DNA of 64,000 nucleotides, taken from NCBI RefSeq assembly GCF_030160755.1, contig NZ_BSOY01000003.1, positions 1 through 64,000 on the forward strand. The letters are read 5' to 3'. This document shows, one piece after another, positions 53,619-57,134 of this stretch. How positions within the stretch are numbered: position 1 is the stretch's first letter; each line of letters starts with the position of its first letter. The notes under the pieces are model-generated. The model saw only the letters and a list, made by a program, of their open reading frames with translations, was not told the origin of the DNA and made no database searches. Source of the stretch: Brevundimonas denitrificans (GTDB lineage Bacteria > Pseudomonadota > Alphaproteobacteria > Caulobacterales > Caulobacteraceae). The position numbers and the translations under genes were made by a program.

Positions 53619-53820
53619 GCGCGCTCCTGCCCTCCGCCTCACAGGCGTAGAGAGAACGGCGATCGATTTCCAGAGGTCCGGCGAACCCGATCAGATTCAA
53701 TCAGTCCAAGCGATGAGCCCTTCGGGTCACGCAAGGTAACGCACCTTTTCAATACCGCTCGGCGGCTCTAGTTTGATCCGCGAAGACAAAGGCTGCGGGA
53801 CAACCGCATCCGCACGGAGG

Positions 53821-55380
53821 ATGGACTTGCGCGTACCCCTGGATGCCAAGGACGGCGAACAGACCATTTTCGACGGCCTGATCGCCGCTCGCGACAGGTT
53901 CGGCGACAAGGAAATCCTCGAGGATCTCGATCGCAAGCCCCTGACCTACACCGGGCTGATCCGGGCCGCCTTTGTGCTGGGCCGCAAGATCGCGGCGATG
54001 ACCGAGCCGGGGGAACGGGTCGGCATCCTGCTGCCGTCCAGCGCGGGCGTCGTCGTCACCTACTATGGACTGCACGCGCACGGCCGAGTGCCGGTGATGC
54101 TCAACTTCACCTCGGGCCAGAGCAACATCAAGGCGGCGATCAAGGCGGCCGGGGTGAGGAAGATTCTCTGCGCCAGGCGGTTCGTAAACCAGGCCAAGCT
54201 TGAGGACCTGCTGGACGACCTGGCTACGGTGGCCGAGATCGTCTGGCTGGACGACGTGCGCAAGACCATCGGCCTTCCCGACAAGCTGTACGGCCTGATG
54301 GCCGGCCTGATGCCCAGACAGTTTCGGGTGAAGACCGACCCGTCTTCGCCCGGCGTGGTGCTGTTCACCTCCGGGAGTTTCGGCGCGCCCAAGGGCGTGG
54401 TGCTGAGCCAGTGGAATCTGGTCGCCAACTGCCGTCAGGTGGCCCAGCACATCGACCTGAAGCCCGAATGGGTGATGTTCAACCCGCTGCCGACCTTCCA
54501 CTGTTTCGGCCTGACGGGCGGGGTGCTGCTGCCCATCCTGCACGGGATGAAGGCGTTCCAGTATCCGTCGCCGCTGCACGCCAAACAGATCGTCGAACTG
54601 CTGCCGGACGTGAAGGCCTCGATCCTGTTCGCCACCGACACCTTCCTGAACCAGTACGCCCGTGTCGCGGCGCCGGACGACTTCGCCACCCTGCAGTTCG
54701 TCGTCGCCGGCGCCGAGAAGGTTCGGCCCGAGACCCATCACCTGTTCAACACCCGCTTCCATGGCCTCAAACTGCTGGAAGGCTACGGCGCGACCGAGGC
54801 GGCGCCGGTGGTGGCGGTGAACCACCCGGATCGCAACCGTCCCGGCACCGTCGGCCAGATGATGCCCGGCATGGAGTGGCGCATCGACCCGGTCGACGGC
54901 ATTCCCGACGGCGGGCGGCTGTTCCTGCGCGGACCCAATGTGATGAAGGGCTATCTGTCGGCCGAGGATCCCGAGAGCGTCGAACCGCTGGCCGGCGGCT
55001 GGCACGACACGGGCGACATCGTCGACATCGACAAGGACGGCTATGTCTCGATCCTCGGCCGGATCAAACGGTTCGCCAAGATCGGCGGCGAAATGGTGTC
55101 GCTGACGGCGGTCGAGGGACTGGCCAGCGCGGTGTGGCCCGACGCACGGCACGCCGTCGTCTCCATCCCGGACGCCCGCAAGGGCGAGAAGCTGGTGCTG
55201 GTCACGGACCGCCGGGACGCGGACGTCGCCCGCCTGGCCGAGTGGGCCCGCAGCCACGGCGCCCCCGAACTGGCGGTTCCGAAGAAGATCATGCGCGTGG
55301 CCGAGGTGCCCGTGCTGGGCACCGGCAAGACCGACTACGTGCGGATCCAGCAGATGGCGGAGCTCGAGAAAGCCGCCTGA
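53821..55380 (+). CDS. AMP-dependent acyl-CoA/acyl-ACP ligase
   Basis: A 519-residue ANL-family ligase that activates a fatty acid as acyl-AMP. Motifs: LFTSGSFGAPKGVVLS (P-loop), LPTFHCFGLTGG, YGATEAAPVVAVN, and GWHDTGDIVDID. It resembles the ligase half of Aas (acyl-ACP synthetase). GGAGG directly abuts ATG 53821; TTG 53827 would give better spacing. Divergent from the terpene-cyclase-like gene across about 200 bases with a GATTC site. Confidence 0.85.
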   Translation: MDLRVPLDAKDGEQTIFDGLIAARDRFGDKEILEDLDRKPLTYTGLIRAAFVLGRKIAAMTEPGERVGILLPSSAGVVVTYYGLHAHGRVPVMLNFTSGQSNIKAAIKAAGVRKILCARRFVNQAKLEDLLDDLATVAEIVWLDDVRKTIGLPDKLYGLMAGLMPRQFRVKTDPSSPGVVLFTSGSFGAPKGVVLSQWNLVANCRQVAQHIDLKPEWVMFNPLPTFHCFGLTGGVLLPILHGMKAFQYPSPLHAKQIVELLPDVKASILFATDTFLNQYARVAAPDDFATLQFVVAGAEKVRPETHHLFNTRFHGLKLLEGYGATEAAPVVAVNHPDRNRPGTVGQMMPGMEWRIDPVDGIPDGGRLFLRGPNVMKGYLSAEDPESVEPLAGGWHDTGDIVDIDKDGYVSILGRIKRFAKIGGEMVSLTAVEGLASAVWPDARHAVVSIPDARKGEKLVLVTDRRDADVARLAEWARSHGAPELAVPKKIMRVAEVPVLGTGKTDYVRIQQMAELEKAA

Positions 55381-55394
55381 ACTTCGCCGTTGAA

Positions 55395-55415
55395 CTGAAA
55401 CAGACTCTGTTTCAG
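55395..55415. promoter_or_regulatory. Palindromic operator upstream of doxX
   Basis: A perfect 21-base palindrome: 10-base arms CTGAAACAGA and TCTGTTTCAG around a central C (55405). It lies 26 bases before the doxX ATG and 14 after the ligase stop. The core GAAACAG-N3-CTGTTTC recurs at 56618 in front of the ligB-type gene. Shape and position fit a TetR/MarR-type repressor site. The regulator is not in the window. Confidence 0.7.
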
Positions 55416-55441
55416 TCTTGGGCAATCAGAAGGAGGGCTTC

Positions 55442-55837
55442 ATGTTCGATTCCGTCTCACGCTATCAGCCGCAGCTTCTCAGCGTCCTGCGCATCGTCTC
55501 CGGCCTGCTGCTTCTGCAGCATGGCACGGCCAAGGTTCTCGGGTTTCCCGCCGTCGAAGGCGTGCCGCCGCCGGGCCTGAGCCTCCCGGGGCTGTCGGGA
55601 CCGTTTGAGCTGGTGCTTGGCCTGCTGCTGGCGCTCGGACTGTTTTCGCGCCCGGCCGCCTTCTTCGCCGCGGGCTTCTGCGCCGTCGGCTACTGGGCGA
55701 TCCATGGAACACAGAACCTGTTCCCCATTCTCAACGGCGGAGAGCTGATCGCCCTCTACTGCTTCGTCTTCCTGTATCTGACCGCCGCCGGCCCCGGGCC
55801 CTGGAGCCTGGACGCGGTCATGCGCAAAAGGGCCTAG
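55442..55837 (+). CDS. DoxX-family membrane protein
   Basis: A 131-residue four-helix membrane protein: LRIVSGLLLLQHGTAKVLGFP, then LPGLSGPFELVLGLLLALGLF and two further helices, ending DAVMRKRA. DoxX proteins are linked to quinone or thiol redox stress responses. GGAGG lies 8 bases before ATG 55442. It converges with the LigB-type gene, sharing 4 bases at the stops, and both have the same operator. Confidence 0.88.
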   Translation: MFDSVSRYQPQLLSVLRIVSGLLLLQHGTAKVLGFPAVEGVPPPGLSLPGLSGPFELVLGLLLALGLFSRPAAFFAAGFCAVGYWAIHGTQNLFPILNGGELIALYCFVFLYLTAAGPGPWSLDAVMRKRA

Positions 55838-56595
55838 GCCTGACCAATCCGCACGCCCGTCATCGAGATTGACCCCCCCTCGATGACATCGTTGAAGAAG
55901 CTCACCTCGTCGCCTGGCGCACGCTGGGCGGCGACGTAGAGCAGCGGTAGATAGTGTTCATCGGTCGGGACGCTCAGCCGGGCGTCCTCGGCCAGCCCGA
56001 CCCAGTCGATCAGGGCGTCGTCGTCGCCGCGCAGCAGCGCCGCCTTGACCGCCTCATTGAAGCCCGAGGCCCATGGATACGCCTCGCCGCCAGCCCGCTT
56101 CCAGGTGCGCAGATTGTGCACGAAGTCGCCCGAGCCTGCGATGATGATCCCCTTGTCCCGCAGCGGCGCCAGACGCTTCGCCAGGTCGTGATGGCCGCGC
56201 GCGTCGAGGCCGCGGTCCAGCGACAGCTGAACCACGGGGACGTCCGCCTGGGGCCAGACATGGGCCAGCACCGACCAGGTTCCGTGATCGAGGCCCCACT
56301 GCGTCGTCGGCGTCGCCCCGGTCAGTTCCGAGACCCGCGCCGCCAGCCCGGGCGATCCCGGCGCCGGGTACTGCATCGCATGCAGTTCATCCGGGAAACC
56401 GCCGAAATCATGGATGGTTTCCGGGGTCGCCTGGGCCGTCACAGCCGGTCCGCTGGTTTCCCAATGGGCCGAGACCATGACCACGCCCTTCGGCTTGCCG
56501 ACCGCCTCGCCCAGCGCACGCCAGGCGTCGGCGTAGGGGCCGCCGAGGGCGTTCATCGGCGAACCGTGGCCGAAGAAGATCGCGGGCTGGCGCAT
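55834..56595 (-). CDS. LigB-type extradiol dioxygenase (YgiD-like)
   Basis: A 253-residue class III ring-cleaving dioxygenase: FFGHGSPMNALGGPYADAW, SAHWETSGPAVTAQATPETIHDFGGFP, and GSGDFVHNLRTW hold the metal His residues. Relatives include 4,5-DOPA dioxygenase YgiD. The start overlaps no gene; the operator at 56618 lies 23 bases upstream. Substrate probably a catechol or quinol. Confidence 0.88.
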   Translation of the reverse strand: MRQPAIFFGHGSPMNALGGPYADAWRALGEAVGKPKGVVMVSAHWETSGPAVTAQATPETIHDFGGFPDELHAMQYPAPGSPGLAARVSELTGATPTTQWGLDHGTWSVLAHVWPQADVPVVQLSLDRGLDARGHHDLAKRLAPLRDKGIIIAGSGDFVHNLRTWKRAGGEAYPWASGFNEAVKAALLRGDDDALIDWVGLAEDARLSVPTDEHYLPLLYVAAQRAPGDEVSFFNDVIEGGSISMTGVRIGQA

Positions 56596-56617
56596 CAGGG
56601 CTCACTCCGATTCATTA

Positions 56618-56634
56618 GAAACAGTATCTGTTTC
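56618..56634. promoter_or_regulatory. Operator upstream of the LigB-type gene
   Basis: GAAACAG-TAT-CTGTTTC, with 7-base arms identical to the core of the doxX operator at 55395. It lies 23 bases before the dioxygenase ATG, the same distance and placement as its twin, so one repressor probably controls both convergent genes. Confidence 0.7.
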
Positions 56635-56666
56635 CAATATGAGCTGTGCGGACGTCGCCGCAAGGC

Positions 56667-57134
56667 TCAGGCGCCGATCCGGGGACCGATCGGACAGACG
56701 CGGTCGTAGAAGGCCGGGTCCGCGGGCGCCGGCTGGCCGCGCGTCAGGCGGAAGCGGTGTTCGACCACCATGGCCTGCTGTTCGATGTTCAGCCCGCCCC
56801 AGTCGCAGTCCACGCCGATGGGGTATTCATAGGACGCCGGCCGATCGCCCGCGCGAATCTTGCCGGTCAGCAGATTGACCCCCTGCTGCGCCTGCCAGAC
56901 GTGGGTCAGCTCGTGGATCAGCATGGCCTGAAGCCGCAGGGGCGCCGCGGCGAGGTCCGGCGGCAGGGTCTGTTTCGGCCAGACGATCCAGTCGCGACCG
57001 AACCATCGTCCCGGGACGAAGGCCCGATCGAACGGCCAGGGCGCGGGCAGGAAACGGATGGAGTCGAGGATGAGCGCCTCTCCGAAGGCCCCGACCGCCA
57101 GAGCCCGCTCGCCGTCGGTCAGTCGCCGGATCAC
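56667..57134 (-). CDS. HExxH metalloprotein, Vgr-related
   Basis: A 155-residue protein with a HELTHVWQAQQG motif (about 90-101), a zinc-metalloprotease-like HExxH. It begins VIRRLTDGERALAVGAFGEAL and resembles short proteins annotated as Vgr-related in Caulobacterales. GTG 57134 overlaps the stop of the carboxypeptidase gene by 4 bases (GTGA). No signal peptide, so it is probably cytoplasmic unless co-exported. Whether it is an active protease is unknown. Confidence 0.65.
   Translation of the reverse strand: MIRRLTDGERALAVGAFGEALILDSIRFLPAPWPFDRAFVPGRWFGRDWIVWPKQTLPPDLAAAPLRLQAMLIHELTHVWQAQQGVNLLTGKIRAGDRPASYEYPIGVDCDWGGLNIEQQAMVVEHRFRLTRGQPAPADPAFYDRVCPIGPRIGA

Follow-up and report, generated by a model that had tools for sequence, protein, structure and literature searches.

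To understand why two convergent genes of Brevundimonas denitrificans, one for a DoxX-family membrane protein and one for a LigB-superfamily dioxygenase, are each preceded by the same inverted repeat, we analyzed a window of 64,000 nucleotides (contig NZ_BSOY01000003.1, positions 1 to 64,000) together with the rest of the genome and related loci. The original prediction held that one repressor, TetR- or MarR-like, controls both genes in response to a catechol, quinone or electrophile.

The motif GAAACAG-N3-CTGTTTC is found as the 17-mer GAAACAGACTCTGTTTC at 55397-55413 on the doxX side and as GAAACAGTATCTGTTTC at 56618-56634 on the dioxygenase side, so that the half-sites are indeed identical at both genes (Table 1). 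The doxX-side palindrome is perfect as described, and its full extent is two nucleotides longer than the predicted 21. A count of 26 bases between 55415 and the ATG at 55442 agrees with the prediction, whereas the gap between the dioxygenase-side site and its ATG amounts to 22 bases (56617 to 56596) and not 23. The arms of the latter palindrome comprise 11 nt each, with 10 of the 11 pairs matching in an inverted-repeat check. The two genes converge and have the four bases CTAG (55834-55837) in common at their stops, as had been noted.

Table 1 Features of the doxX/dioxygenase locus (window positions; a dot marks features without strand).
Feature	Position	Strand	Description
AMP-binding gene	53773-55380	+	acyl-ACP/CoA-ligase-like, upstream of doxX; Pfam AMP-binding; context only, not a claimed regulon member
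Putative doxX promoter	55390-55418	+	TTGAAC (55390-55395), 17 nt, CAGTCT (55413-55418); by eye, from sequence and relatives
Operator O1 (putative)	55394-55416	.	23-nt perfect palindrome ACTGAAACAGA-C-TCTGTTTCAGT before doxX
doxX	55442-55837	+	DoxX-family membrane protein, 131 aa; Pfam DoxX 1.6e-10
Dioxygenase gene (ligB)	55834-56595	-	LigB superfamily, YgiD / 4,5-DOPA-extradiol-dioxygenase type, 253 aa; NCBIfam NF007914 1.9e-84, Pfam LigB
Operator O2 (putative)	56614-56638	.	25-nt imperfect palindrome ATTAGAAACAG-TAT-CTGTTTCCAAT before dioxygenase gene
Putative dioxygenase promoter	56636-56663	-	TTGCGG (56663-56658), 16 nt, CATATT (56641-56636); by eye

The dioxygenase belongs to the YgiD family as judged from its NF007914 match, which lies above the cut-off, and from a match to E. 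coli YgiD (PDB 2pw6, 1.9e-69) in which the motifs GHGSP, SAHW, VHNLR and EHYLPLL are kept. The conserved histidine motifs presumably provide metal ligands. The AMP-binding gene upstream of doxX encodes a stand-alone protein similar to the ligase portion of acyl-ACP-phospholipid O-acyltransferase (its PRK06814 match is below cut-off), and a similar gene adjoins doxX or ligB in the loci of many relatives.

A search of the whole genome for GAAACAG-N3-CTGTTTC returned exactly two copies in 3,012,183 bases, both at these promoters, while a reversed control motif gave none. Allowing up to three mismatches, the window holds seven sites against 0.75 expected, a number reached in none of 100 shuffles. 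Many random copies within coding sequence, which would have spoken against the original prediction, were not encountered, the genome-wide count at this tolerance being 80 sites versus 93 for the reversed control. Exact copies occur in 4 of 101 genomes of the genus, namely the window's own, G021, G028 and G016; that of G021 also stands before doxX. In G028 and G016 the palindrome lies, by eye, near a pseudouridine-synthase-like gene and a small lipoprotein-like gene, outside the regulon discussed here. The relatives nearest to the window genome carry Brevundimonas names.

A wider pattern search of the genome revealed two further sites on another contig (C47), placed before a gene whose product matches Pfam Nitroreductase and, above cut-off, NCBIfam PRK05365 (malonic semialdehyde reductase). 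A RutE-like paralogue among apparent rut genes on contig C75 showed no extended motif within three mismatches. Besides the twin sites, the genome contains 11 sites with at most two mismatches: one in the nitroreductase promoter, seven in clear coding frames, one between sucD-like and sucA-like genes and two that could not be placed, coding status being judged by frames counted from start codons. Since seven of these fall in coding frames and one lies between the suc-like genes, the motif is not exclusive to the regulon; we define the regulon by conservation, assessed for three promoters. The copy between the sucD-like and sucA-like genes (L093:1501-1517, contig C70) carries two mismatches and reads GATATAGGCGCTGTTTC. 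Another two-mismatch copy, GACACAGGCGCTGTTGC (L087:1501-1517, contig C14), precedes the start of a 171-aa secreted-looking frame by 82 bases, and this gene is a possible further target.

To assess conservation across the genus, we scored the core pattern GNAAC-Ns-GTTNC with spacers of 3 to 11 in the 130 bases before each gene, at a threshold of at least 7 of 8 bases. The sample of 24 loci consisted of the window, L003-L023 minus L021 (a Caulobacter locus) and three more loci of the genus, L116, L205 and L206; within L003-L023 so reduced, every label reads Brevundimonas except that of L009 (Bordetella). For the dioxygenase unit we took its first gene, which is wrbA where present and otherwise ligB, and excluded L023, where the sequence is cut off, leaving 23 loci; the nitroreductase gene was found at 45 places, spread over 43 of 61 genomes, and 30 of these loci were retrieved and scored. 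With a spacer of 7, the core precedes 10 of the 18 doxX genes found, 21 of the 23 dioxygenase units and 28 of the 30 unlinked RutE-like nitroreductase genes. Forty rounds of dinucleotide shuffling reached maxima of 3, 3 and 4, respectively, and with the eight other spacers the counts peaked at 1, 3 and 7, the last being reached by spacer 5 before the nitroreductase gene (7 loci), which exceeds its own shuffles (maximum 4). As the loci are related and some near-identical (L003, L205, L206), these counts are not independent trials; the spacer control was run on the same sequences. Eight of the 18 doxX genes have no core site, L005 has one at neither doxX nor the dioxygenase unit, and the G021 locus (L116) retains just 6 of 8 core bases before wrbA. 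The nitroreductase promoter has two sites; in stretches chosen by hand, the proximal site passes the same threshold in 26 of the 30 loci, the distal site in 15.

Counted genome-wide, the core by itself shows no excess, with 19 sites versus 24 in the control. Sixteen of these 19 full-core places were viewed in context, two of them in more detail, and on this basis were judged to be chance occurrences. A longer, perfect 23-mer, TTAGNAAC-N7-GTTNCTAA, is present in 4 of 390 genomes of the family, always in the dioxygenase promoter, with the reversed control present in two; its placement was seen directly in L205 and L206, and the remaining two share their site sequences with L003 and L004.

In 17 of the 24 genus loci, ligB is immediately preceded by wrbA (WrbA of G021 is named by TIGR01755). 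The wrbA gene is missing from this position in the window, which contains no wrbA at all, and in L003, L004, L005, L205 and L206, L023 being cut off. In the wrbA-less loci other than L005, the site stands before ligB, behind the same upstream gene. In the lineage of the window (56596-56680), which lacks wrbA at this position, ligB seems to have inherited the promoter and operator of the wrbA type.

How might the sites act? Judging by eye, O1 covers the spacer between the putative -35 and -10 elements of doxX, and O2 starts inside the putative -10 element of the dioxygenase gene. The latter geometry recurs in L003, L004, L205 and L206 and at the proximal nitroreductase site. A strict sigma-70 consensus scan detected no promoter at doxX or the dioxygenase gene. 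Because the sites lie in or on the putative -35/-10 elements, their positions suit a repressor acting by steric hindrance. Three features argue well for common control of doxX and the dioxygenase gene, as originally proposed: the motif is conserved, one spacing is favoured, and the sites fall in putative promoters. A TetR- or MarR-like regulator is one candidate among several (see below).

We therefore propose, with a probability of about 0.7, that a single transcription factor, most likely a repressor whose gene lies at another place in the genome, uses both palindromes as operators and silences the doxX, dioxygenase and nitroreductase genes. The sites, their conservation at three promoters and the fixed spacing of GNAAC-N7-GTTNC are observations; the promoter elements were placed by eye. 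The repressor would keep silent doxX, the YgiD-type dioxygenase gene (together with the preceding wrbA in most relatives viewed) and the unlinked RutE/HadB-like nitroreductase gene, its dimer occupying the site and blocking RNA polymerase. A quinone, catechol or other electrophile would release the dimer, whereupon WrbA and the nitroreductase would reduce the compound, the dioxygenase would cleave the ring and DoxX would help at the membrane. The predicted response to quinones or electrophiles draws indirect support from the company of nitroreductase and WrbA, and from a precedent in E. coli, where ygiD and yqjF are under the hydroquinone-induced control of YhaJ according to excerpts of PMC5031710. 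The motif is most likely the control element of a small detoxification regulon.

No regulator gene adjoins the doxX/dioxygenase pair. Profile searches of the genome identified regulators at 10 TetR places, 6 LysR (PF00126), 18 MarR_2 and 1 HxlR, several of the 18 MarR_2 places being, by eye, ArsR, Lrp, Crp or LexA. The full core was in none of the inspected TetR, LysR, MarR-profile and HxlR loci (1.9-3.3 kb each). Several regulator loci had one-mismatch cores; the copy shortly upstream of an ArsR gene on contig C29 we judged to be chance. The TetR- or MarR-like family of the original prediction therefore finds no particular backing: the inspected TetR and MarR-profile loci lack the full core, and Rrf2 or LysR fits as well, so that Rrf2, TetR, MarR and LysR all stand as candidate families. 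The sole HxlR gene found has an upstream palindrome of its own, TTGGCAACCCTCTTGCCAA (L100:5090-5150, contig C26), which by eye is unlike the regulon motif; a palindrome of a different kind was likewise seen by eye before the MarR gene in locus L187. The alphaproteobacterial LexA site, GTTC-N7-GTTC, is a direct repeat, and the PsrA site, GAAAC-N4-GTTTC, differs in spacing; on this general background both factors were set aside. SydR was likewise dismissed, its site being TATCGCGATA in the excerpts of PMC11633110.

Could the twin sites have a more trivial origin? They lie just 1.2 kb apart, as would suit chance or the local duplication of one sequence. Yet the motif, with its spacing, also precedes a gene unlinked to the pair and recurs throughout the genus, and the flanks differ, with CTG..CAG before doxX and mostly ATTAG..CTAAT elsewhere. 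This origin is disfavoured by the spacing control, and we regard it as most improbable. Scarcely more credible is that the palindromes work as RNA hairpins, terminators or attenuators instead of operators, as two near-perfect inverted repeats in intergenic DNA might suggest: neither a terminator-like site nor an Rfam match was detected, which led us to reject this reading, and what is kept is the sequence rather than the pairing, many relatives having one arm GTTGC and a mismatch in the other.

The identity of the factor leaves more room for debate. Were the factor a YhaJ-type LysR activator, the locus would be the Brevundimonas counterpart of the YhaJ regulon of E. coli. Members of both gene families are under YhaJ control in the excerpts of PMC5031710, LysR genes lie beside doxX and/or ygiD on plasmids of Agrobacterium, Sulfitobacter, Blastomonas and Indioceanicola, YhaJ-like genes occur near ygiD in L036 and L039, and the 7-base gap of AAC-N7-GTT equals that of the YhaJ box, TCA-N7-TGA. 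We nevertheless consider such a regulator unlikely. An exact search for the box recovers it in the E. coli control regions, yqjF and yhaJ-yhaK, but in none of the doxX, ligB and nitroreductase promoters. With the promoters placed by eye, the sites either occupy the spacer between -35 and -10 or begin at the -10, the distal nitroreductase site alone lying upstream of a -35. Moreover, just two of the six LysR genes found match YhaJ, one at 42% over 78 aa, the other at 25% over 264 aa. Upstream of plasmid homologues, nine regions were checked, including three that separate LysR from doxX; the full core was in none of them, the closest being 7 of 8 bases within a 691-base region. The repressor model can also be given a named family, an Rrf2-type quinone sensor like pneumococcal SifR, although we hold this to be doubtful. 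SifR represses catechol dioxygenase and quinone reductase genes via TGTAA-N9-TTACA, and Rrf2 is a reasonable candidate because the arm spacing AA-N9-TT equals that of the SifR and HypR operators (both from excerpts of PMC9218516). The core can be written GNAA-N9-TTNC, and by eye the doxX site, TGAAA-N9-TTTCA, matches the SifR consensus at 8 of 10 positions and the dioxygenase site at 6 of 10; against this, a rough signature scan of the DNA of the examined loci found no Rrf2 gene. A specific version of the repressor model, possible and put forward tentatively, is that a genus-specific quinone- or electrophile-sensing repressor, of a family new to this job in Alphaproteobacteria, reads a new operator of approximately ATTAGNAACAG-N3-CTGTTNCTAAT and took over a ygiD-doxX-wrbA-nitroreductase set that is placed elsewhere under LysR, MarR or HxlR.

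The pairing of doxX with ygiD also occurs outside the genus, where ygiD genes have quinone-related neighbours. We opened 11 plasmid neighbourhoods, picked by eye (two because both proteins matched the same record) and with an incomplete gene table; the two genes lie together in 4 of them, whereas they do not on the Variovorax, Kozakia, Pseudosulfitobacter, Methylobacterium, Rhizobium, Indioceanicola and Bosea plasmids. The plasmid searches yielded no regulator for the motif. A Sphingobium plasmid carries doxX-ygiD, a Sulfitobacter plasmid has the pair beside benABC, and a Blastomonas plasmid shows the order dioxygenase-esterase-doxX-LysR. On Agrobacterium pusense pR76 (L218:1849-5255), LysR is divergent from doxX-ygiD-GST; as the GST is 50% identical to the E. 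coli glutathionyl-hydroquinone reductase YqjG, pR76 appears to carry a compact quinol-defence cluster. The Kozakia plasmid has ygiD-flavin reductase-nitroreductase. In an acidobacterial (Pyrinomonadaceae) locus (L034:2406-5668), the genes ligB-MarR-YceI-doxX-FMN reductase follow each other on one strand, a version of the gene set with a linked regulator; the MarR gene is followed by a palindrome, TTGTTATAACAA, and preceded by a similar repeat. Locus L042 combines ligB, a MarR gene and an FMN reductase. The clusters on pR76, Sulfitobacter p5SUD7, Blastomonas pBSY18_2 and in L034 resemble the Brevundimonas arrangement in having the same pair beside a local regulator gene, but differ in that the regulator is linked, the plasmid upstream regions lack the motif found here and L034 has another palindrome. 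In a survey of 60 ligB loci from outside Brevundimonas, nine had pirin-like genes, a name given from sequence only, and five had FMN-reductase-like genes. A relative of the window DoxX was present in just two of the 60 (L021 and L034), and the doxX-ligB pair is thus not general.

The gene set resembles known quinone- and catechol-defence regulons, and by analogy we would file it with that known kind. As described in excerpts of PMC5031710, the E. coli YhaJ regulon includes yqjF, ygiD, yhaK, yhhW and ybiJ, with the dispersed ygiD and yqjF sharing a box and responding to hydroquinone; YhaJ is also treated in PMC11739112, seen in excerpt. The likeness lies in its targets, ygiD being of the same family as the dioxygenase here and E. 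coli yqjF being annotated as a DoxX family protein, counterparts recognized in the window through NF007914, 2pw6 and Pfam DoxX. A blastp comparison of E. coli YqjF with the window DoxX gave no match at 1e-3. In contrast to the TCA-N7-TGA box and LysR activator of E. coli, we find GNAAC-N7-GTTNC in a repressor-like position, a nitroreductase promoter is included, and the six LysR genes found contain no clear YhaJ orthologue. CatD is a DoxX-family protein, and the dioxygenase controlled by YodB, CatR and QsrR has a different fold from the one here. These HxlR/DUF24 repressors, YodB/CatR of B. subtilis and QsrR of S. aureus, are similar in that they control ring-cleaving dioxygenases and nitroreductases or quinone reductases (excerpts of PMC6212828 and PMC6798810), but the single HxlR gene found here has, by eye, a different upstream palindrome. 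SifR of S. pneumoniae, of the Rrf2 family, shares the catechol dioxygenase and quinone reductase targets and the operator arm spacing (PMC9218516, in excerpt), and differs in its half-site, TGTAA. We found no description of such a regulon in Brevundimonas in the open-licence PubMed Central literature.

Beyond the twin sites of the original prediction, our analysis places the motif before an unlinked nitroreductase gene and, in most relatives viewed, before wrbA. Taken together, this yields a precise candidate operator and three conserved promoters for a putative detoxification regulon in a common environmental genus, and the operator makes the missing regulator directly findable by pull-down. 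YgiD-type dioxygenases and DoxX proteins are both poorly understood, and the findings further support their co-regulation as a pairing met again in distant bacteria, where the regulators differ.
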